The notes under the pieces: generated by a model
Database searches by the model: none
Told to the model about the DNA's origin: nothing
What the model saw: only the letters and a program-made list of their open reading frames with translations
Translations under genes and position numbers: made by a program
Source: Natronorubrum halophilum
GTDB lineage: Archaea > Halobacteriota > Halobacteria > Halobacteriales > Natrialbaceae
Direction of reading: 5' to 3'
DNA: 64,000 bases
Assembly: GCF_003670115.1 (NCBI RefSeq)
Contig: NZ_QQTY01000001.1
Coordinates: forward strand, 1,178,001 to 1,242,000
In this document: positions 17,569 through 26,880 of the stretch, one piece after another
How positions within the stretch are numbered: position 1 is the stretch's first letter
Layout of the letters: every line of letters begins with the position of its first letter

Positions 17569-18117
17569 TCAGTCTGGAACGCACTCAACGTCGATCTCTC
17601 GTTCGAGGTCGATACTCACCTCGCCATCACTAACTTCGATTGCAACTGTCACCGTCGCATCGCTCTCTTGTTGCGACGGGGAAAAATCACCACTCGTCGG
17701 ACAGCTAAAATCACCGAGAACGACGCGAAATCCATCCTCCGCGGGTTCCCGTCTGAGACTCTCTTCATCGATTATATCGTCTTCGTCATTCGCTTTCGAA
17801 AACGAGACGTCCTCTATAGAGAGGGGACCGGACGGTGTATTATCTTCGAGAACGACGACGCTTTCGGCGTCGTACTCGTAATCAGGGCATCCAAAAAAAC
17901 AAAACCCGAACCCTCCGAGATCGCCATTTTCACTCTCCAACTCGAGCACTCTCTCTTCGGAGGGGTACTCGAGGCCCAGAAGGGCGTCCTCATCACCTGC
18001 GGTCTCAACCGCTACCCCTCGATCAGCGACCGTCGAGTCGAACGCGCCACTCGAGGCGACGACGGCGAGCGAACCGACGACGAGCAGTCCGAAGCCGAGG
18101 TACGTGATCCATCGCAT
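17569..18117 (-). CDS. Secreted DUF1102-like surface protein with four cysteines
   Basis: This 182-residue protein has an N-terminal hydrophobic signal, RWITYLGFGLLVVGSLAVVA, then SSGAFDSTVADRGVAVETAG and DEDALLGLEY. That block aligns by eye with the start of the DUF1102 protein at 22496 (GTGAFSSVEADRSVTLETTG, DASALLQF). The mature part has CFFGC, a later CPTSG and DVEC near the end, which could form two disulfides. The ATG at 18117 gives a compact signal peptide; longer in-frame starts look non-coding. It is the last gene of a minus-strand group with a DUF7344 regulator and a giant pilin-like protein. Confidence 0.65.
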   Translation of the reverse strand: MRWITYLGFGLLVVGSLAVVASSGAFDSTVADRGVAVETAGDEDALLGLEYPSEERVLELESENGDLGGFGFCFFGCPDYEYDAESVVVLEDNTPSGPLSIEDVSFSKANDEDDIIDEESLRREPAEDGFRVVLGDFSCPTSGDFSPSQQESDATVTVAIEVSDGEVSIDLEREIDVECVPD

Positions 18118-18189
18118 CGGTGTATCAGGTTTGAGGTAGCGACATTTCGAGTGCCGATCGGCAGTTAGAAACGACGGTCCAGACAACTA

Positions 18190-18726
18190 TCACGGCGGTC
18201 GTTCCATCTCTCCGAGTCGCATCCGACGGCTCTGTGCGACGTGGACGACCGCCGACACCGCGAACAGCGCGAACACGAGCGTCGCCCAGCCGAGTTCGGG
18301 TACCGTCCCGATCGGCACCACCTCGAGCCAGAGCCCCGCCATCACGATCGACCCGACCGCAGCCAGTCCCAGATAGTACGTGCCCCACGGCACGGAGTCA
18401 CCGGGAACGACGTCGAGGTAGACGTCCAGTTCGGTCGCCCTGTCGGTGAGCGCGATCGTCCGATCGTCGAACTCGATCATGTCGGCCCGCTCGAGCGTCG
18501 GCAGGTGCGTCTGCTGTAACGACGTGTAGACCCGCTTTCGCTCCGCGGAGGTGAGTTCCTGGACCTCCTTGTCGAGTTCCCAGGCGGCGACGTGTTCGGC
18601 CAGATCGCCGAGCGTCACGGGTTCGTCCTCGAGTTTGCAGTAGTGGACGGCGTACCGGCGACGGTGGTTACTCAGCAACTCGAAAATTTCGCCTCGATCC
18701 GAATCGGCCCCCATCTTAGTCCCCAT
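18190..18726 (-). CDS. DUF7344 winged-helix regulator with two membrane helices
   Basis: This 178-residue protein begins with a winged-helix domain: EIFELLSNHRRRYAVHYCKL, then LGDLAEHVAAWE, RKRVYTSLQQTHLPTLERAD and IEFDDRTIALT. This is the haloarchaeal DUF7344 domain. Two helices follow, TYYLGLAAVGSIVMAGLWL and LGWATLVFALFAVSAVVHVA. Proteins of this type often lie beside surface-protein and pilin genes and are presumed membrane-tethered regulators. It stands between two predicted surface proteins on the same strand, so it probably controls this locus. The 226-bp gap upstream separates it from the giant pilin-like gene. Confidence 0.8.
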   Translation of the reverse strand: MGTKMGADSDRGEIFELLSNHRRRYAVHYCKLEDEPVTLGDLAEHVAAWELDKEVQELTSAERKRVYTSLQQTHLPTLERADMIEFDDRTIALTDRATELDVYLDVVPGDSVPWGTYYLGLAAVGSIVMAGLWLEVVPIGTVPELGWATLVFALFAVSAVVHVAQSRRMRLGEMERPP

Positions 18727-18952
18727 CGAATACTCCCTGATAGTGTGAAAATACGTATTTCTGATACATAACCCTTACCGCCGTGGCAGAGTAGTGACTT
18801 CCTCGGACTCCATTACGGCCTAAGAAGGGGTTTTCCGTCCCCGAATAACGAGATCATCATCCAAATCTGGACTCGCAGGAGTGAACAGTTCGGATGGTTT
18901 TCATTCTATGGTCTGTCGTTCGTGTATCGGTAGCGGAGAATATCGCGAGGGA

Positions 18953-21900
18953 CTATCCGATTACGATGTAATCAGTATCGATGTTGACCCCCGTTTCAGT
19001 CGTTTGATTGTCCCCCGTTCCTTCGACGGACTCGCCGGTTCCAACAGTGGGTGAGTCGCCCGCAGTGGGATCGCCCTCACCAAACTCCATATCGATATCG
19101 CCGACTTCGTCTACGCTGTCGGAGCCACCGGGGCCTACAGCAGTTTCGTTGCCGCCACCGGGCATAATCGTGATGCTAGGCGTGCCGGGGTCGACACCTG
19201 CGCGTTCGACCTCGACGTAGACGATCAGATCATTGAAGTTCGGGTCGGACGTTTGATCGGGGTTTTGCTCGTAGGAGTCTATCGCATCATCCCAAAGGGC
19301 ATCGATACCGTCCTCGTCCGTCGACTCCGTGTTTTCGAAGAGGAATACGAACTCACCCGGGCCGAGGTCGAGTTCGTCACCGCTGTCCGCGATCAGTCCT
19401 CGCTGCTCGAGCACTTCGGTCGCACTCAGTTGTTGCTCGTTACCGGCGGGAAGGGCGGGAATCGTGTTGTTCTCCGCGCTCCGAACCCGGACGTTCTGCA
19501 AGTTCTCGCCCTGCGAGGCGTCGATCGGTCCGAACACCTCGCCGTTTGGTGCATCATTACACCACATGAGGTCCCGATCGGTCGGTCCCGAGTAGTGCGA
19601 GAGCGTATTCGGATCGGTGGCCTCGGCCTGGCACGTAGTGTACCTCGTGTTCCGGAGCGTAAGTTCGGTTTCCTCGTCGACGGTGAAATTGTGCGTGAAA
19701 GCGCCGTCGCTTTTGTTCTGCCACGTTGGGCCGGTATTGATATTATCGCCACCAGTAGGGTTTTCGAACGAATGTTCCGTTACTCCGTTCGTCCTCACGT
19801 CGAGGGACATCGGAGCCAGATTATGAACGTCCTCGAAGTCCCACCATCCGGTCCGGATTCTTCCGTCTCCGGAAACTTGCGAGCCAACGACTTCGACCAT
19901 CACTTCCGCGTCTTCGATTTCACCCAGTCCCACTCGTCCGGGATCGATGCCCGCGTCGACATCGAACTCGACACTGTCCGTACCGTCGTCCGTGTGAATC
20001 GTCGCCTCGTACTCCCCATCGAGAAGCTTACTTTCGTTGAGTACCAGTTCGATGGAATCTGTCTCGCCGAACGATCGGTTGACGTTCGTCTCACCGAGAT
20101 ACCCATACGGATCGCCATCGAGTTCCTCCGGTAGTTCACCGACGTACTCGAGTTCGAAGCCAACGTCCTGAGATCCGGTTTCGATACCGAGGTTCGTGAT
20201 ATTGGCAGTGATCGTCACGTTACCGTCGTTACGGGTCGCGTTCGTGTCCGCCGGATCGAAGTACGTCCCGGATTTCCCGGCGTAGAACGAACCGTTGGAG
20301 GTCATCGCACTGTCCTCGGTCGAGACATTGTACTCGTACACCGAACCGGCCTCGAAGTCGTCGGTCTCGATCTCGAACTCGACTATTTCGGATTCGTTCG
20401 ACTCGAGCGTCACCGTTTCGGGGTCGGGTTCGCTCGCCGGTTCACCAGGAAGCGTCAGCGTCACGTTTTGCGTTTCGGTGGTGAGATTCGTGTTCGTAAC
20501 CTCCGCCCCGATCGTGAACGTCGACTCCGTCACGTCGACGCGTTGGTCGCCGGTGTCTCCGGGCCCGTCGAGTACGCCGTGATCCGCGGTGACGACAACT
20601 CCGTCTCCCTCCTGGCCGCCCTCGATGTGGAGTGTTCCGTTTGCACTGTCGTTTTCAGTTTCGATCGAGAACGGATACTCCTCACTGGGCCACGCACTCT
20701 CGTTTATAATCCACGAGACCGTTCCTTCAGCACCGTACTCGAGTTCGAGTTCCTGCTCGACGCCGTCGATGTCGGGGTGGTCGAACTCGAGTGAGATGTT
20801 CTGCGCATCGGTTCCCGTCGCGTTCTCGACGCCCTGATTCCGGATGGTAGCGCTGATCGTTGTGTTCTCGTCGCCGGTCGACGTATTTTCGATGTCGGTG
20901 ACGTTCAGGTGAGTTCCCTCTTTACCGAGGTAGAACTCGCCGGGTGTGTCGAGCGAATCGTCTGGAGTAGAAATTACGTACTGATAGGTATTGTCCGGCT
21001 CCAGAACGGTGCTGTAATTGTTCTTATCGATCTCGACTGTTTCCTCATGAGTGGCACCACCAGTCATCTCCGTAACATCCGAGTTTGCTTCTTTAACCAT
21101 CCCGCCTTCGATAGAAACGGTCATCTCGGAATCGATAGGATCACTGCCGGTGTTATTTAACAACGCTGTGAAATTGAGATCCTGACCGAACTCGACCCGG
21201 TTACCGTCGCTTTCGACCGCATTCCCGATGCCTCTATCCTCTTCAATACGTAACTGTGAATCGTCTGACTGCTCCCTGATTCCCTTGACCTTCACTTCGA
21301 CGGTCTCGGCTCCCGAGTTGTGTGAAATGCTGCTACTCACGTTCTCGTCCACATTCGACACGAGAGCCGTCTCGAGGTGCTGTTTCCACCCGTCGTGGTA
21401 CGAACTCTCGATTCGGATCGCGACGTTAGTTCCGTCGGAGTTGCTCGCAGCTTCGGCGATGTCTGCGGCCAGTTCGTCGCTCCTCTCGTGGTCGGCTCGC
21501 GCGATCGGATCGGACCCTGATAGCTCGTCCTGATCGAGGAGCATGAGATCGAACCGAACGGATCCGTTGGAGCCTGTGGAACCGTTCTCGTAACTGATTC
21601 CGGGTTCCGAGATGATCTGCGTCCCCGACCCGGTATCCTCCCAGATGCCACCGCCCTGATGAGCGATCGTCCGATCGTCGAGTTCGAACTCGAGCGCACC
21701 GAGTTCGGCGGTTGCGGTCCGGGTGTCGTCGTCCCAAGGGAGGTCGTCGGACTCTGAGTCGTTGTACCAGAGGATGTCGACCTGCCCTTTGTCGGCGACG
21801 TCGATTTGACAGTCCGAGATGTCGGTATCCGGCATGGAGCGTTGCTCACCAGTTGCCGCAACGGTCGCGAGCTGGTGGTCCGTTTCGTCCATACAGAGGT

Positions 21901-22078
21901 GAGCGCGCTCGCGTTCGCTCCCCGATTCGAACGTGTCAAGCATCGGCGACCCGACGATAAACAGCAGTGCCGTCCCTGCGATCACCATTCCGAGGAGGAG
22001 TACGAGACCCACGATGGGGCTCAGTCCCCGTCCCCGCTGAGCGCGATTCCCCCGCCTTTTCCCACCTGCACCAAACAT
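18953..22078 (-). CDS. Giant pilin-like surface protein with repeated CARDB-like domains
   Basis: This 1041-residue protein starts with a basic stretch and then RGLSPIVGLVLLLGMVIAG, a single type IV pilin-like helix (residues about 17-42) as in haloarchaeal DUF7289 proteins, which are usually far shorter. After a region of about 230 residues come four beta-sandwich-like segments (about 295-390, 392-485, 515-605, 608-707). The motif GEFYLGKEGT (380) recurs as GSFYAGKSGT (596). N-x-S/T glycosylation sites are very frequent. The C-terminal third has two pairs of cysteines and ends in an acidic, Gly-rich tail closing with NIDTDYIVIG. It is likely anchored or assembled at the cell surface. The gene is notably lower in GC than its surroundings. 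Confidence 0.8.
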   Translation of the reverse strand: MFGAGGKRRGNRAQRGRGLSPIVGLVLLLGMVIAGTALLFIVGSPMLDTFESGSERERAHLCMDETDHQLATVAATGEQRSMPDTDISDCQIDVADKGQVDILWYNDSESDDLPWDDDTRTATAELGALEFELDDRTIAHQGGGIWEDTGSGTQIISEPGISYENGSTGSNGSVRFDLMLLDQDELSGSDPIARADHERSDELAADIAEAASNSDGTNVAIRIESSYHDGWKQHLETALVSNVDENVSSSISHNSGAETVEVKVKGIREQSDDSQLRIEEDRGIGNAVESDGNRVEFGQDLNFTALLNNTGSDPIDSEMTVSIEGGMVKEANSDVTEMTGGATHEETVEIDKNNYSTVLEPDNTYQYVISTPDDSLDTPGEFYLGKEGTHLNVTDIENTSTGDENTTISATIRNQGVENATGTDAQNISLEFDHPDIDGVEQELELEYGAEGTVSWIINESAWPSEEYPFSIETENDSANGTLHIEGGQEGDGVVVTADHGVLDGPGDTGDQRVDVTESTFTIGAEVTNTNLTTETQNVTLTLPGEPASEPDPETVTLESNESEIVEFEIETDDFEAGSVYEYNVSTEDSAMTSNGSFYAGKSGTYFDPADTNATRNDGNVTITANITNLGIETGSQDVGFELEYVGELPEELDGDPYGYLGETNVNRSFGETDSIELVLNESKLLDGEYEATIHTDDGTDSVEFDVDAGIDPGRVGLGEIEDAEVMVEVVGSQVSGDGRIRTGWWDFEDVHNLAPMSLDVRTNGVTEHSFENPTGGDNINTGPTWQNKSDGAFTHNFTVDEETELTLRNTRYTTCQAEATDPNTLSHYSGPTDRDLMWCNDAPNGEVFGPIDASQGENLQNVRVRSAENNTIPALPAGNEQQLSATEVLEQRGLIADSGDELDLGPGEFVFLFENTESTDEDGIDALWDDAIDSYEQNPDQTSDPNFNDLIVYVEVERAGVDPGTPSITIMPGGGNETAVGPGGSDSVDEVGDIDMEFGEGDPTAGDSPTVGTGESVEGTGDNQTTETGVNIDTDYIVIG

Positions 22079-22102
22079 TACTTACTCCCTACACAGTATC
22101 AC

Positions 22103-22110
22103 TATAAATA
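22103..22110 (-). promoter_or_regulatory. TATA element of the giant pilin-like gene
   Basis: The minus strand reads TATTTATAGT around this site, centred about 28 nt before the ATG at 22078. This fits a leaderless mRNA. Confidence 0.6.
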
Positions 22111-22296
22111 TATTCATGGAACTCTAGAGGTTGACGTGACCAAATCGAGACGATCCATGGACAGAATGTGTAAACGGTACTAGCTACTCGGTCGAGCGCC
22201 GTTAGCGTCTCGTGACATCTCATCGCCTCGAGATGGGAGGCATACTCGAGCAACCGTCCGATTCGACCGGAACAATACCCACACGTACTCACGTGT

Positions 22297-22304
22297 TATA
22301 ATAG
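22297..22304 (+). promoter_or_regulatory. Possible TATA element of the DUF1102 / SipW gene group
   Basis: TTATAATAG is the only strong AT element on the plus strand before the ATG at 22496. If it is used, the mRNA has a leader of roughly 170 nt, which is long for haloarchaea. Confidence 0.35.
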
Positions 22305-22340
22305 CATTCGGCCGTTCGGCGTCTCGAGTCGGTATTTCGG

Positions 22341-22361
22341 CGTTCAAGACCGCCTTGAACG
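22341..22361 (+). promoter_or_regulatory. Hairpin in the leader of the DUF1102 gene
   Basis: A perfect 8-bp inverted repeat, CGTTCAAG and CTTGAACG around a 5-nt loop, lies between the likely TATA element and the first DUF1102 gene. It could be an operator or an RNA hairpin. Confidence 0.45.
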
Positions 22362-22495
22362 AGTGTATCGCTCGCCCTTCAGCAGATCTGGCAACCGAAT
22401 ACAAAGTGGGGAGACTGTCTGGAAGAGCGTAAGGACCGCGTTCCGGATCTCGCTGTCGAGGCGACGAGGCGCGCGGTTGTACGGAGACCACAACC

Positions 22496-23029
22496 ATGAG
22501 AATGAATCGACGTAATGTGTTAGTCGGACTGGGTACGATTGTCGCGGGCGGCGGAGCAGCACTCGGTACGGGCGCGTTTAGTAGCGTGGAAGCCGATCGA
22601 TCGGTGACGCTGGAAACCACAGGCGACGCCAGTGCACTCCTCCAGTTCTCCGCAACGAGTAGTGTCGCGAGCACCGACGGGGGGAGCGGAGACGGGCAAC
22701 TTGAGTTCGATGAGACGACTCTCAACGAAGACGCAGTGACGACGTTCGATCCCGCGTTCACCGTGGAAAACACGGGGGGAGAAGACGTCGGATTTTACGT
22801 AAAGGAGGACGGAACCAATATTGCGAGCGATGGGATCATCGACTTCATCGACGAAGATGGGAATTCGATCGTACAGGCAGACCACGAGGGCGGAAGCCAG
22901 ATCGACCTGCCGGCGAGCGCTCCCGGTCCCGTTGACGTGGGAATCGTCGTCGATACGGATGACAGTAATAGCGTAGGCGACATCGACACCGTCACGCTCG
23001 TCGCCAGCACTGAGGCGCACGGTCAGTAA
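22496..23029 (+). CDS. DUF1102 secreted protein, candidate TasA-like fibre subunit
   Basis: This 177-residue protein starts MRMNRRNVLVGLGTIVAGGG, then AALGTGAFSSVEADRSVTLE. The GTGAFS ending of the signal resembles the cleavage region used by SipW-type signal peptidases; a Tat-like RR is also present. The mature domain is an acidic beta-sandwich with TLNEDAVTTFDPAFTVENTG and VDVGIVVDTDDSN, typical of DUF1102. TasA and archaeal bundling pilins share this kind of small sandwich domain and signal. A SipW-type peptidase is encoded two genes downstream. A fibre-subunit role is inference. No cysteines are present. Confidence 0.75.
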   Translation: MRMNRRNVLVGLGTIVAGGGAALGTGAFSSVEADRSVTLETTGDASALLQFSATSSVASTDGGSGDGQLEFDETTLNEDAVTTFDPAFTVENTGGEDVGFYVKEDGTNIASDGIIDFIDEDGNSIVQADHEGGSQIDLPASAPGPVDVGIVVDTDDSNSVGDIDTVTLVASTEAHGQ

Positions 23030-23099
23030 TCAGTACCGTAATCGGTAGCGACCGCACCCGTCCGTCGCGTCGAATCATGCCGGAGAGAGGGAGACCGTC

Positions 23100-24257
23100 A
23101 TGCCATCTACCAAGCTTCTACTCACCGCCGCCGCAGCCTGCTTTCTCTTCGCGCTCGCAGTCCCGACAGTAGCGATCACGGTGGGTGAGGACACGGCAGC
23201 CGATAACGTCGTCCTCGAGCCGACCTCCCGATACGCCTCAGTCGATGCCAACGGCGACATTCGGCTCGATCTGGAGGCACTCAACAAACGAGCGATAACC
23301 ACTGCGGACGACGTGTTTGCGATCACCGTCAACGACGACGCCGTCGAGCGAGTCTGGATCAGTAACGAGGGCGGCCTCGAGTTCTACGAGGGGACCGACC
23401 GAACCGCTACGATCACCGAACGGACTCCGCTCGAGCCGTCCGCCGGCGAAACGACGAGCGTCGGCGTCGCGGTCGATACGCACGGCGACTACGACAGCAC
23501 GGAAACGTTCACGGTGCACGTCGCCTACGCTGACGAAGCGGACGACGACGACGAGAACGATACGGACGCGGTGCCGAAAGGAATCAACCTCGAGTCTCTC
23601 GAGGTTCACCCAACGACGCTCGAGACGGGCGACACCGTGACGGCGAACGCGACGTACCGGAACAACGGACGGACCACGGAGCAGGTGACGTCGGCGTTGA
23701 CCGTCGACGGGACCGTCGTCGACACCGAGACGCTCGAGGTCGAGCCCAACGAGACGGCCTCGGTCGTTTTCGAGCGCCGGATGCAGTGGCCGGGCACGTA
23801 CGAGGTCGGTGTCGACGGAATCGCGAGCGAGTCGGTGACCGTCGAGGGGCCACCGATCGACGTTCTGTCCGCGACGGTCTCTCCCGTCGAACTCACCGTC
23901 GGCGACACGGCGACCACCGAAGCGACGGTCAGCAACCCCACGGAGACGCGGGTCGACCGCACGCTCGAGTTGGCGGTCGACGGCATCGTCGTCGACGCGA
24001 AGACAGTGTCGATCGCGCCGGAGTCGGAGCGGACGGTCACGTTCGAGCGGCAGTTCGACGACGCGGGGACGCACGACATCGCGGTCAGCGGCGTGAAGGC
24101 GGGTTCGGTTACCGTCACGGAACGGGAGCCGTTCCCGATCCGGAACCGCGAGTTGTCGGCAGCGACGACGGCGGCGCTCGCTCCGCCGATGGCGACGGGG
24201 TTTCTGTTCGTAGCTGTCGCAGCGAATCGCCGATGGGCGTTCGTCTCGAGACGGTAA
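23100..24257 (+). CDS. DUF1102-like domain plus CARDB repeats and C-terminal membrane anchor
   Basis: This 385-residue protein has a signal peptide, KLLLTAAAACFLFALAVPTV. Next is a DUF1102-like domain (about 25-150) whose ALNKRAITTADDVFAITVND and TTSVGVAVDTHGD blocks align with the previous gene. Two CARDB-like sandwiches follow, LESLEVHPTTLETGDTVTAN (about 161-250) and LSATVSPVELTVGDTATTEA (about 256-345). It ends with a membrane helix, TAALAPPMATGFLFVAVAAN, and a basic tail. The layout suggests a wall-side protein held in the membrane, able to hold or cap fibres made from the free DUF1102 subunit. It lies 70 nt after that gene and 121 nt before the signal peptidase. Confidence 0.7.
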   Translation: MPSTKLLLTAAAACFLFALAVPTVAITVGEDTAADNVVLEPTSRYASVDANGDIRLDLEALNKRAITTADDVFAITVNDDAVERVWISNEGGLEFYEGTDRTATITERTPLEPSAGETTSVGVAVDTHGDYDSTETFTVHVAYADEADDDDENDTDAVPKGINLESLEVHPTTLETGDTVTANATYRNNGRTTEQVTSALTVDGTVVDTETLEVEPNETASVVFERRMQWPGTYEVGVDGIASESVTVEGPPIDVLSATVSPVELTVGDTATTEATVSNPTETRVDRTLELAVDGIVVDAKTVSIAPESERTVTFERQFDDAGTHDIAVSGVKAGSVTVTEREPFPIRNRELSAATTAALAPPMATGFLFVAVAANRRWAFVSRR

Positions 24258-24378
24258 CGAACCCCGAACTCGAAGGAACGGGACGAACGCCCGCTCTCGG
24301 GGACTTTAAGGTGTTCGATTTCGAAACTAGTAAGAAGTAAAATAACTCAGAAGCCATGATAGTCCAGGTGACGAGACG

Positions 24379-25542
24379 ATGACGTCCGCCGCGTTCCTCA
24401 AGCGAGGGCTGGGGCTGGTCGTCGCCGTCTGCATCGTCCTTCTACTGGTCGGACAGCTGCTGGGACAGCCGATCCTGCTGGGCTACGTCGCGACCGGAAG
24501 CATGGAGCCGACGATGGACGCCGGAGACGGTTTCGTCGCGATTCCCAGCATCGCAGCCGGTTCGGTCGAGGAGGGTGACGTCGTCGTGTTCGAGGCTCGA
24601 GAGCTTCACGGCGGCGAACTGACCACTCATCGTGTCGTCGGCGAGACCGAGGAGGGGTACGTCACGAGAGGTGACGCCAATCCGTTCACGGACCAGGACG
24701 GCGGCGAACCCCACGTCACTGACGGACAGATCGTCGCCAAAGCGTGGCAGGTAAACGGCGAGGTCGTCACGATTCCGTACCTCGGGTCGGCGATTATGGG
24801 CGTCCGAGGCGTCGCGGAGTCGGCCTACGGGACCGTCGCACCGATTCTCGGACTGACGACGACGGCAGACTCGGAGGGACTCGGCGCGTTGCTGGTCGCC
24901 GGCGGAGTCGCGCTGCTCGGGTTCGGCGTGGTCGTCGAGCGACTCGGACCCGGCGTTCGCGAGACGACGCGCTCGCGATCCCGCGAAAACGTGATCGCGT
25001 TCTGGACGGCGCTGGGACTCGCGTTGCTCGTCTTCGTCACGTTCGCGACCGCGGCGATGGTGGTTCCCTCGGGGACGACCGAGTACGAACTCGTGAGCAC
25101 TGAGACGCCGGACGACAACCCCCAGATACTCGCACCGGGGGAGACCGGCGAACTCGCCCGAACCGTCGACAACGCGGGCTACGTCCCCATCGTGGTCGTT
25201 CACGAAGCCGAGAGCCGGAACGTCGCGACGGACCCCAGCGCGCAGACGGTGGGGATACGCTCGAGCGGCGAGACGACGGTCTCGCTCACCGCGCCGGACG
25301 AGACCGGCGAGTACACCCGGCACGTCGGCGAGTACCGGTATCTCACCGTTCTCCCGCCGTCGGTACTCGTCTGGCTGCACGGCGTCCACCCTCTCGTCGC
25401 GATCGCTGCGGTAAACGGCGTCATCGTCGGGGTTACGGTCGTAATCGTGCTCGTCGTCTTCGGCCGAAACGACCTGCGCGTTCGCTCCGCGGGGGACCAC
25501 GTCCCGCTGTCGACTCGCCTCGAGCGAAAATTCCGAAAGTAG
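24379..25542 (+). CDS. SipW-type archaeal signal peptidase I with a long C-terminal extension
   Basis: This 387-residue protein has an S26B peptidase domain at about 1-135. A first helix (10-30) is followed by catalytic S41 in ATGSMEPTMDAGD, H84 in LTTHRVVGE and D99 in VTRGDANPFTDQ; histidine in place of the bacterial lysine marks the Sec11/SipW branch. The extension adds helices at about 170-192 and 208-233, an external beta-rich part with ILAPGETGELARTVDNAGY, and a last helix at about 342-366. Stand-alone SipW enzymes are about half this length. It sits among DUF1102 genes, so it is probably dedicated to processing them rather than serving as the general signal peptidase. Confidence 0.88.
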   Translation: MTSAAFLKRGLGLVVAVCIVLLLVGQLLGQPILLGYVATGSMEPTMDAGDGFVAIPSIAAGSVEEGDVVVFEARELHGGELTTHRVVGETEEGYVTRGDANPFTDQDGGEPHVTDGQIVAKAWQVNGEVVTIPYLGSAIMGVRGVAESAYGTVAPILGLTTTADSEGLGALLVAGGVALLGFGVVVERLGPGVRETTRSRSRENVIAFWTALGLALLVFVTFATAAMVVPSGTTEYELVSTETPDDNPQILAPGETGELARTVDNAGYVPIVVVHEAESRNVATDPSAQTVGIRSSGETTVSLTAPDETGEYTRHVGEYRYLTVLPPSVLVWLHGVHPLVAIAAVNGVIVGVTVVIVLVVFGRNDLRVRSAGDHVPLSTRLERKFRK

Positions 25543-25570
25543 TGTGGGAGATGCGTTCAGCGGCTCAGGA

Positions 25571-25590
25571 ACCATTATCGTTATAATGGT
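25571..25590 (+). promoter_or_regulatory. Palindrome over the DUF5305 promoter
   Basis: Arms ACCATTAT and ATAATGGT around CGTT form an 8-bp inverted repeat. The right arm contains the TATAAT element about 20-25 nt before the ATG at 25603. A repressor bound here would block the promoter. Confidence 0.45.
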
Positions 25591-25602
25591 CGCCTGCAGT
25601 GA

Positions 25603-26880
25603 ATGTATGCATGCGCGTCCTTCACCCGATCCGTCATGTCGGATCAGTATGGACAGTGCGGGGGAGGGGAGCGGCGTCGATCTGTTTGGGGTGCCCGAAC
25701 GGTGATTGAGAGTCCTCGGCTCGACCTGTTGCTCGTCAGATACGGTCGCCGGATCGTGATTGTCCTGGTCGTTGTCGGTATACTCGCGCTCGTCGCGACG
25801 GGATGGGTGGTCGCGAATCCGTCGACGTCGACGACCACGCAGTACGGCCAAGAACGCATCTCGAGCGAGGTCGGGACGAGCGCCGACGTCGTCCAGGATG
25901 GGGCGCTCTGGAACGAGGGCGATCGACTCGAGAACAGCAGGGTGTACATGCTGAACGCCTCGCCCGAGCTAACCGTCGAGCCGGAGACGACGCTGGTAAA
26001 CCAGACCGACGGAACGCCGATCGACGACGGCAGCGTAACCCACGAGCTAACAGTTCGTTTCGAGGCGACTCGAGACGGGGAGTCGTTCTGGAACGAGACT
26101 CACACCGTGGTGGATGACTCGCCGTCCGTCGAGAACGGCGTCGCGACGTCGGAGGCGACCATCGACGTCGAATCCTACCGTGAGCGACAGCGGCAACTGG
26201 AACGCGAGCTATCGGGGGTCGGTGACGTCGCCACCAAACTGGAGTTTCGCGTCGAGTACGACACCGGGACGAACCGGGGGACGAAAGAGGAGTCGTCGAC
26301 GTTTCACGTAACCGACGACGCCTACTGGCTGTCCGAACCGCCCTCGGTGACGGATACGCCGACACACCGGACGGGAACGCAGCGGACGACCGAGCCACAG
26401 AGCCTCGCGACTATCGCCGGTCTCTCGCTTCTCGGGACGCTCTCGCTCGTCAGTGCCGCGTTCGTCGCTCGTCGCTCGCCGGTCGACGAAGCGGCCGCCC
26501 GGCGTGCGGTCCACGAACAGCGGTACGCCGAGTGGATCTCGCAGGGCTCGATCCCGATGTGGATCGGCGACTATCACGTCTCGCTCGACACCTTAGAGGA
26601 CGTCGTCGACGTCGCAATCGATACGAACGAACGCGTCGTTCACGACCAGCAACGCGGCCTGTTCGCCGTCGTCAACGATGGCGTCGTCTACTACTACAGC
26701 GACCGCGGCCTCTGGGAAGAGACCGCCTGGCCGGAGATGACCCTTCAGGAACGGCCGGCCGTCGGCGGCGGCGAGCCCGAACTCACGCCGGACGAGATGG
26801 ATCTTCAGGGCGACGCGGAGTTCGGAAGCCCCGACGAGAGAGGATTCGACGACGACGAGGACGTCTGGAAGAAACTGTAA
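25603..26880 (+). CDS. DUF5305 membrane protein of the surface locus
   Basis: This is a 425-residue protein with a first membrane helix, RRIVIVLVVVGILALVATGW (about 49-70). An external region (about 71-265) contains MLNASPELTVEPETTLVNQT and FWNETHTVVDDSPSVENGVA. A second helix lies at about 267-289 and an acidic cytosolic domain ends the protein. This matches DUF5305, a family usually found beside SipW-type peptidases in haloarchaea. The ATG at 25603 is used because a TATA element lies just upstream, but the in-frame ATG at 25636 is possible. It follows the peptidase by 60 nt and has its own promoter palindrome. Its molecular role is unknown; assembly or anchoring of fibres is a guess. Confidence 0.78.
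   Translation: MYACASFTRSVMSDQYGQCGGGERRRSVWGARTVIESPRLDLLLVRYGRRIVIVLVVVGILALVATGWVVANPSTSTTTQYGQERISSEVGTSADVVQDGALWNEGDRLENSRVYMLNASPELTVEPETTLVNQTDGTPIDDGSVTHELTVRFEATRDGESFWNETHTVVDDSPSVENGVATSEATIDVESYRERQRQLERELSGVGDVATKLEFRVEYDTGTNRGTKEESSTFHVTDDAYWLSEPPSVTDTPTHRTGTQRTTEPQSLATIAGLSLLGTLSLVSAAFVARRSPVDEAAARRAVHEQRYAEWISQGSIPMWIGDYHVSLDTLEDVVDVAIDTNERVVHDQQRGLFAVVNDGVVYYYSDRGLWEETAWPEMTLQERPAVGGGEPELTPDEMDLQGDAEFGSPDERGFDDDEDVWKKL

Follow-up and report, generated by a model that had tools for sequence, protein, structure and literature searches.

A likely Tat-fimbria locus with its own SipW-type signal peptidase and a strongly diverging pilin in Natronorubrum halophilum

The window is the whole 64,000-nucleotide stretch of Natronorubrum halophilum DNA that was analysed, and seven open reading frames were confirmed at positions 17569-26880 (Table 1). 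All seven are intact and carry haloarchaeal codon and charge bias. Two gene starts differ from the ends of their open reading frames. The start of dufA was inferred, the gene probably extending over 17569-18117 with an ATG preceded by a long TTG extension, and the start of the DUF5305 gene at 25702 was deduced from homologous sequences. Curated cut-offs were exceeded in the window by the matches to DUF5305, DUF7289, DUF7344 and archaeal signal peptidase I. The gene for the giant surface protein has a GC content of 57.7%, compared with ∼64-67% in its better-conserved neighbours, in line with the lower GC first reported for it.

Table 1. Features of the locus, in positions of the window
Feature	Position	Strand	Evidence and remarks
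dufA, secreted protein	17569..18117	-	SipW-type 'GAF..ADR' signal without twin arginine; ORF to 18186
DUF7344 winged-helix membrane regulator	18190..18726	-	PF24035 E 2e-29; counterpart in canonical tafi locus E 7e-54
Giant DUF7289 surface protein of 1041 aa, prepilin-like, with CARDB-like Ig domains	18953..22078	-	PF23960 E 3e-16
Divergent intergenic control region	22079..22495	.	417 bp separating oppositely oriented genes
dufB, pilin (TafE/TafA family)	22496..23029	+	9p0a E 8e-22; twin-arginine signal MRMNRRNVLVGLG
dufC, membrane-anchored TafF counterpart	23100..24257	+	Pilin-like N-domain, two CARDB domains, C-terminal TM helix
SipW-type signal peptidase	24379..25542	+	C-terminal Ig-like domain and TM helices; TIGR02228 58 bits, above cut-off
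DUF5305 membrane protein, conserved partner	25702..26880	+	PF17231 E 3e-47; ORF from 25603

The dufB protein was compared with the PDB by sequence and gave a sole match, the 'Pilin' chain of entry 9p0a, titled 'Structure of Natrinema sp. J7-2 Tafi pilus' and released 2025-07-23. A profile of 67 dufB homologues matched the same entry with E 3e-43. An AlphaFold2 model of dufB had a mean pLDDT of 76, with a low-confidence N-terminal part (pLDDT about 46-64), and structural comparison with 9p0a gave Z 10.8 across 122 residues, the mature proteins sharing ∼30% identity in the structural alignment. After 9p0a, the matches listed included the Pyrobaculum bundling pilin 7ueg (Z 7.7), E. coli FimA (Z 6.6) and the Sulfolobus thread 7pnb (Z 6.4); these three are suggestive only, because all lie below Z 8 and unrelated Ig-like folds reach 6-7. 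The bundling pilin and the thread share the beta-sandwich subunit fold with the modelled dufB, and no sequence match between either of them and the window pilin was found. The proposal that the subunits are small beta-sandwiches like those of archaeal bundling pili is thus supported by the dufB model, through both 9p0a and 7ueg.

Against the NCBIfam TafE model (NF052522) dufB scored 140.1 bits (E 6e-41), below the 155-bit cut-off, and it also matched NCBIfam TafA below the cut-off. By these scores dufB is a relative of TafE and not a member of that equivalog. Within the twin-arginine signal peptide R5 is invariant among the 67 homologues and R6 is kept in at least 90%. Cleavage was predicted at A27|F28. 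The chain in 9p0a was modelled on 188 residues of which the last is 215, and it therefore starts at about residue 28, which is also the predicted cleavage point of dufB.

Gene order was read at 71 loci from a scan of named genomes. Loci of the Natrialbaceae layout carry genes for ABCE1, EMC6, dufA, DUF7344 and a giant prepilin, followed divergently by pilin, dufC, peptidase and DUF5305. The canonical layout of Haloferax, Halorubrum and Haloarcula runs peptidase, TafC, DUF7344, TafA, TafE and TafF, with a DUF5305 gene added in some. At the 33 loci with an EMC6 flank, peptidase, DUF5305 and DUF7344 genes were each present in 32 and dufC in 30, and the DUF5305 gene adjoined in 32/33 loci of the Natrialbaceae type. 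The dufB-dufC-peptidase-DUF5305 block recurs contiguously across these 33 other loci, so the arrangement is not due to chance. For 41 of 47 full peptidase homologues (41 genomes) a TafE-family gene lay no more than 8 kb away. Conversely, a peptidase was nearby at 45 of the 61 TafE-family places tested, and several of the other places sit on short contigs. The survey of other haloarchaea that had been suggested therefore gave a conserved order, and the families were not found scattered without SipW-type genes.

The giant prepilin gene was present in 14 of the 33 EMC6-flanked loci and missing from 19. The first-pass annotation had considered the block, giant included, as a possible complete fibre system; the conserved core with its peptidase agrees with this, and the giant is accessory. 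The giant might instead be the main filament of a type IV pilus island to which the SipW-type genes are mere neighbours, as its N-terminus resembles that of a class III prepilin (TIGR02537 below cut-off), it carries DUF7289 and its gene adjoins the divergent region. This is very improbable given its absence from 19/33 comparable loci that otherwise keep the peptidase, DUF5305 and DUF7344 in 32/33, and no pilus ATPase or platform protein was present among the genes called from ABCE1 to the HTH gene. As an accessory protein the giant is perhaps an adhesin. By hhalign it is a relative of the CARDB portion of dufC, at 3e-8. In the giant-prepilin slot of a congener (L044:11633-14389) a protein with DUF7289, DUF7305 and VWA domains was found, suggesting adhesin variation.

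The closest reference is locus L081 of Natrinema gari, with a pilin that equals 9p0a at every printed residue. Its gene order is that of the window from ABCE1 and EMC6 through to the acyl-CoA ligase and HTH genes, with the giant prepilin, dufC, peptidase, DUF5305 and flanking housekeeping genes in the same places, and its pilin is homologous to dufB with a near-identical signal peptide. The two differ in that the Natrinema J7-2 fibre has been solved, whereas the window fibre is predicted from its genes, and in the mature pilin, which has diverged strongly. With the canonical tafi loci the window shares homologues of TafE, TafF, the peptidase and the regulator, and DUF5305 stands beside some of those loci. 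The canonical loci, however, have TafC (LamG) and a distinct TafA, both of which the window locus is without. Their TafF has a Gly-rich linker where the window counterpart has CARDB domains, and the DUF7289 and dufA genes are additional in the window. In the window genome no TafA or TafC was found above the NCBIfam cut-offs; the best TafC (NF052521) match lay outside the locus, at C2:866439, and reached 31.9 bits where the cut-off is 410. Since dufB falls under the TafE and TafA cut-offs and the locus is without TafC, the fibre may be simpler in composition.

The lack of TafA and TafC above cut-off in the genome, together with the single full TafE-type gene in the locus, would also suit a repurposed locus in which the pilin-like proteins are processed by the peptidase and secreted as an unpolymerised matrix or S-layer-associated coat. 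This is unlikely: all the open reading frames are intact, and the same single-pilin order occurs in Natrinema gari, where the pilin matches the solved tafi pilus. The window locus combines a pilin homologous to a solved subunit, a twin-arginine signal, a linked SipW-type peptidase and DUF7344 protein, and a TafF-like membrane protein. It is very probably a tafi (Tat-fimbria) locus encoding a dufB fibre with a dedicated SipW-type peptidase. The original suggestion of a fibre system with its own peptidase is supported by homology to the solved pilus and by haloarchaeal gene order, but the set is not an undescribed one. Haloarchaeal Tat-fimbriae have been published (Galeva et al., iScience 2025, doi 10.1016/j.isci.2025.111793, as cited in PMC12687288), TafA, TafC, TafE and TafF exist as NCBI families, and the J7-2 pilus is solved. 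The system is already known, and the window locus adds a member with the Natrialbaceae layout.

The peptidase is present as a single copy in the window genome. The S41, H84 and D99 named in the first-pass annotation were confirmed in its sequence and are invariant in 58/58 homologues, and it matched its homologue in a canonical tafi locus with E 2e-82. The match to NCBIfam SipW (NF046067) was E 7e-10, below the cut-off; the SipW-type assignment stands on the catalytic residues and on TIGR02228, which place the protein in the S26 archaeal signal peptidase family. The C-terminal part of the peptidase is related to CARDB (4e-6). Aligned by hhalign, the dufC N-domain scored 3.9e-12 with the mature pilin and 9.5e-12 with TafF; unrelated families from the same loci score 0.0027 or weaker. 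The two CARDB domains of dufC were found with E 4e-10, the structural neighbours listed for dufC are matches to these domains, and a C-terminal membrane helix was modelled at 354-382. This architecture suggests that dufC is a subunit embedded in the membrane at the base of the fibre.

The dufA protein matched TafE weakly (9e-7), and with the strict sequence set mature dufA matched the pilin family with E 8e-8 over the first 69 columns only. It would be an accessory or minor component. At the dufA position of a congener (L045:10613-11446) a SipW-type signal is followed by a bactofilin domain, a cytoskeletal fold in what seems to be a secreted protein. A PMT-like glycosyltransferase (weak match) adjoins the pilin inside one tafi locus (L034:10407-12242) and hints at pilin glycosylation.

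The first-pass annotation had listed three DUF1102-like proteins. Pfam DUF1102 (PF06510) gave no match in the window proteins or genome at its cut-off, yet profile comparison linked the DUF1102 family to the pilin (E 1.5e-17 at full length, 4.5e-12 with mature parts only) and to the dufC N-domain (3.7e-8). The DUF1102 alignment excludes a wrong-frame open reading frame (L130), and the result was unchanged by this. The likeness to DUF1102 holds at profile level for dufB and for the head of dufC; dufA shares only the N-terminal half with the pilin family. DUF1102 proteins occur in a distantly related archaeal family that belongs to the same phylum and has genomes of 1.4-2.2 Mb; this family is likely Archaeoglobaceae, because one locus adjoins an HdrA-like gene. 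A peptidase gene adjoins the DUF1102 genes in 11/11 regions (L149-L158, L160), most of which also carry DUF7344, DUF5305 and an anchor-like protein. The set runs DUF7344, two to three DUF1102 genes, SipW, anchor-like protein and DUF5305, and is the same set as in the window. Sequence identity to the window is, in contrast, very low, and the signals differ: no twin arginine was seen ahead of the hydrophobic stretch in the DUF1102-locus N-termini read. In the literature searched, which was covered in part, no mention of DUF1102 and no account of the DUF1102 link or of pilin cassette variation was found.

Kinship with TasA had also been proposed. Archaeal bundling pilin has been described as TasA-like (PMC9674648), and by way of 7ueg the claim may hold at the level of fold; in sequence, TasA/camelysin (PF12389) gave no match in the window genome while the B. 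subtilis positive control was matched. TasA was not among the 50 structural neighbours listed for dufB. The Bacillus TasA-TapA-SipW system is alike in its dedicated SipW-type peptidase and small beta-sandwich subunit and, by analogy, may be alike in donor-strand assembly (PMC9674648), but the window has a Tat-type signal. Acquisition of a genuine TasA orthologue system from bacteria, for which the SipW-type peptidase (with its sub-threshold NF046067 score) and the beta-sandwich subunit could be cited, has a negligible probability next to the PF12389 result: the nearest relatives among the matches listed are archaeal tafi and DUF1102 proteins, and a related gene set occurs in the distant archaeal family.

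The working of the Tat-fimbria is inferred, starting from the observed homology and synteny to a solved pilus, the fold, the catalytic residues and the co-occurrence of the genes. The twin-arginine signal would direct the pilin to the Tat pathway for export, and the SipW-type peptidase would cut the pilin after A27. In TasA the N-terminal strand completes the next subunit (PMC9674648). By analogy, the freed segment of the pilin from F28 may complete the beta-sandwich of the following subunit, and such donor-strand polymerisation would yield a thin fibre. In dufC the same pilin-like domain is joined to a pair of CARDB domains and a membrane helix, and dufC is therefore probably the anchor of the fibre at the surface of the cell, or its starting point there. 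The DUF5305 protein may assist in the membrane and the DUF7344 protein would act as regulator, with the divergent secreted proteins (dufA and the DUF7289 giant) as putative accessory, possibly adhesive, components.

Conservation was compared across Natronorubrum congeners (L035, L040-L042, L044-L048). Identity is ∼95% in the pilin signal peptide but drops to 31% in the mature pilin, which is far less conserved than every neighbouring gene (ABCE1 93%, DUF7344 81%, peptidase 79%, DUF5305 73%, dufC 67%). As far as the sequences go, the fibre protein differs wildly among close relatives and the surrounding machinery is constant. In a variability analysis of 27 single-pilin loci, backbone proteins followed the peptidase with rank correlations of 0.88-0.92 and the mature pilin with 0.06, a low value that is partly due to identity saturating at about 30%. 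Between the Natrinema hispanicum genomes DSM 18328 and CDM_6 identity is 95% for the peptidase and 35% for the pilin; the discord is opposite in two Natrarchaeobius loci, where peptidases are 74% and pilins 93% identical. Between DSM 18328 and CDM_6 (L086:8900-10000 and L114) DNA identity of 87-99% falls to about 40-58% in a stretch comprising the pilin gene together with roughly the initial 130 codons of dufC, after which it exceeds 90%. At the level of DNA this looks like the replacement of a cassette of pilin plus anchor head within surroundings that are 90-99% identical.

Across loci, co-variation of pilin and dufC head was weak, with a partial correlation of 0.09 (p 0.05) when the peptidase was controlled for and 0.15 (p 0.014) when the CARDB part was, and the pair L086/L091 contradicts it; co-selection is therefore not established. 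A single recombination tract would be an alternative explanation for the joint replacement of pilin and dufC head. There is about an even chance that the tafi and DUF1102 loci are one archaeal fibre system that predates the haloarchaeal use of Tat, into whose conserved backbone the hypervariable pilin and a matching anchor head are swapped by recombination. If so, allele swapping would fit a surface fibre that is exposed to attack, with viruses as one example, or that is adapted to different kinds of surface. The combination of conserved machinery and hypervariable subunit opens the question of what drives change in archaeal surface fibres. The analysis also assigns DUF1102, with the accompanying DUF5305 and DUF7344, to a fibre-building system for which a structure has been solved, and thereby gives a testable role to many archaeal surface genes annotated as 'unknown'. 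On a Halovenus MAG contig (L117:2122-9510), about nine TafE-like pilin genes were found within 8 kb.
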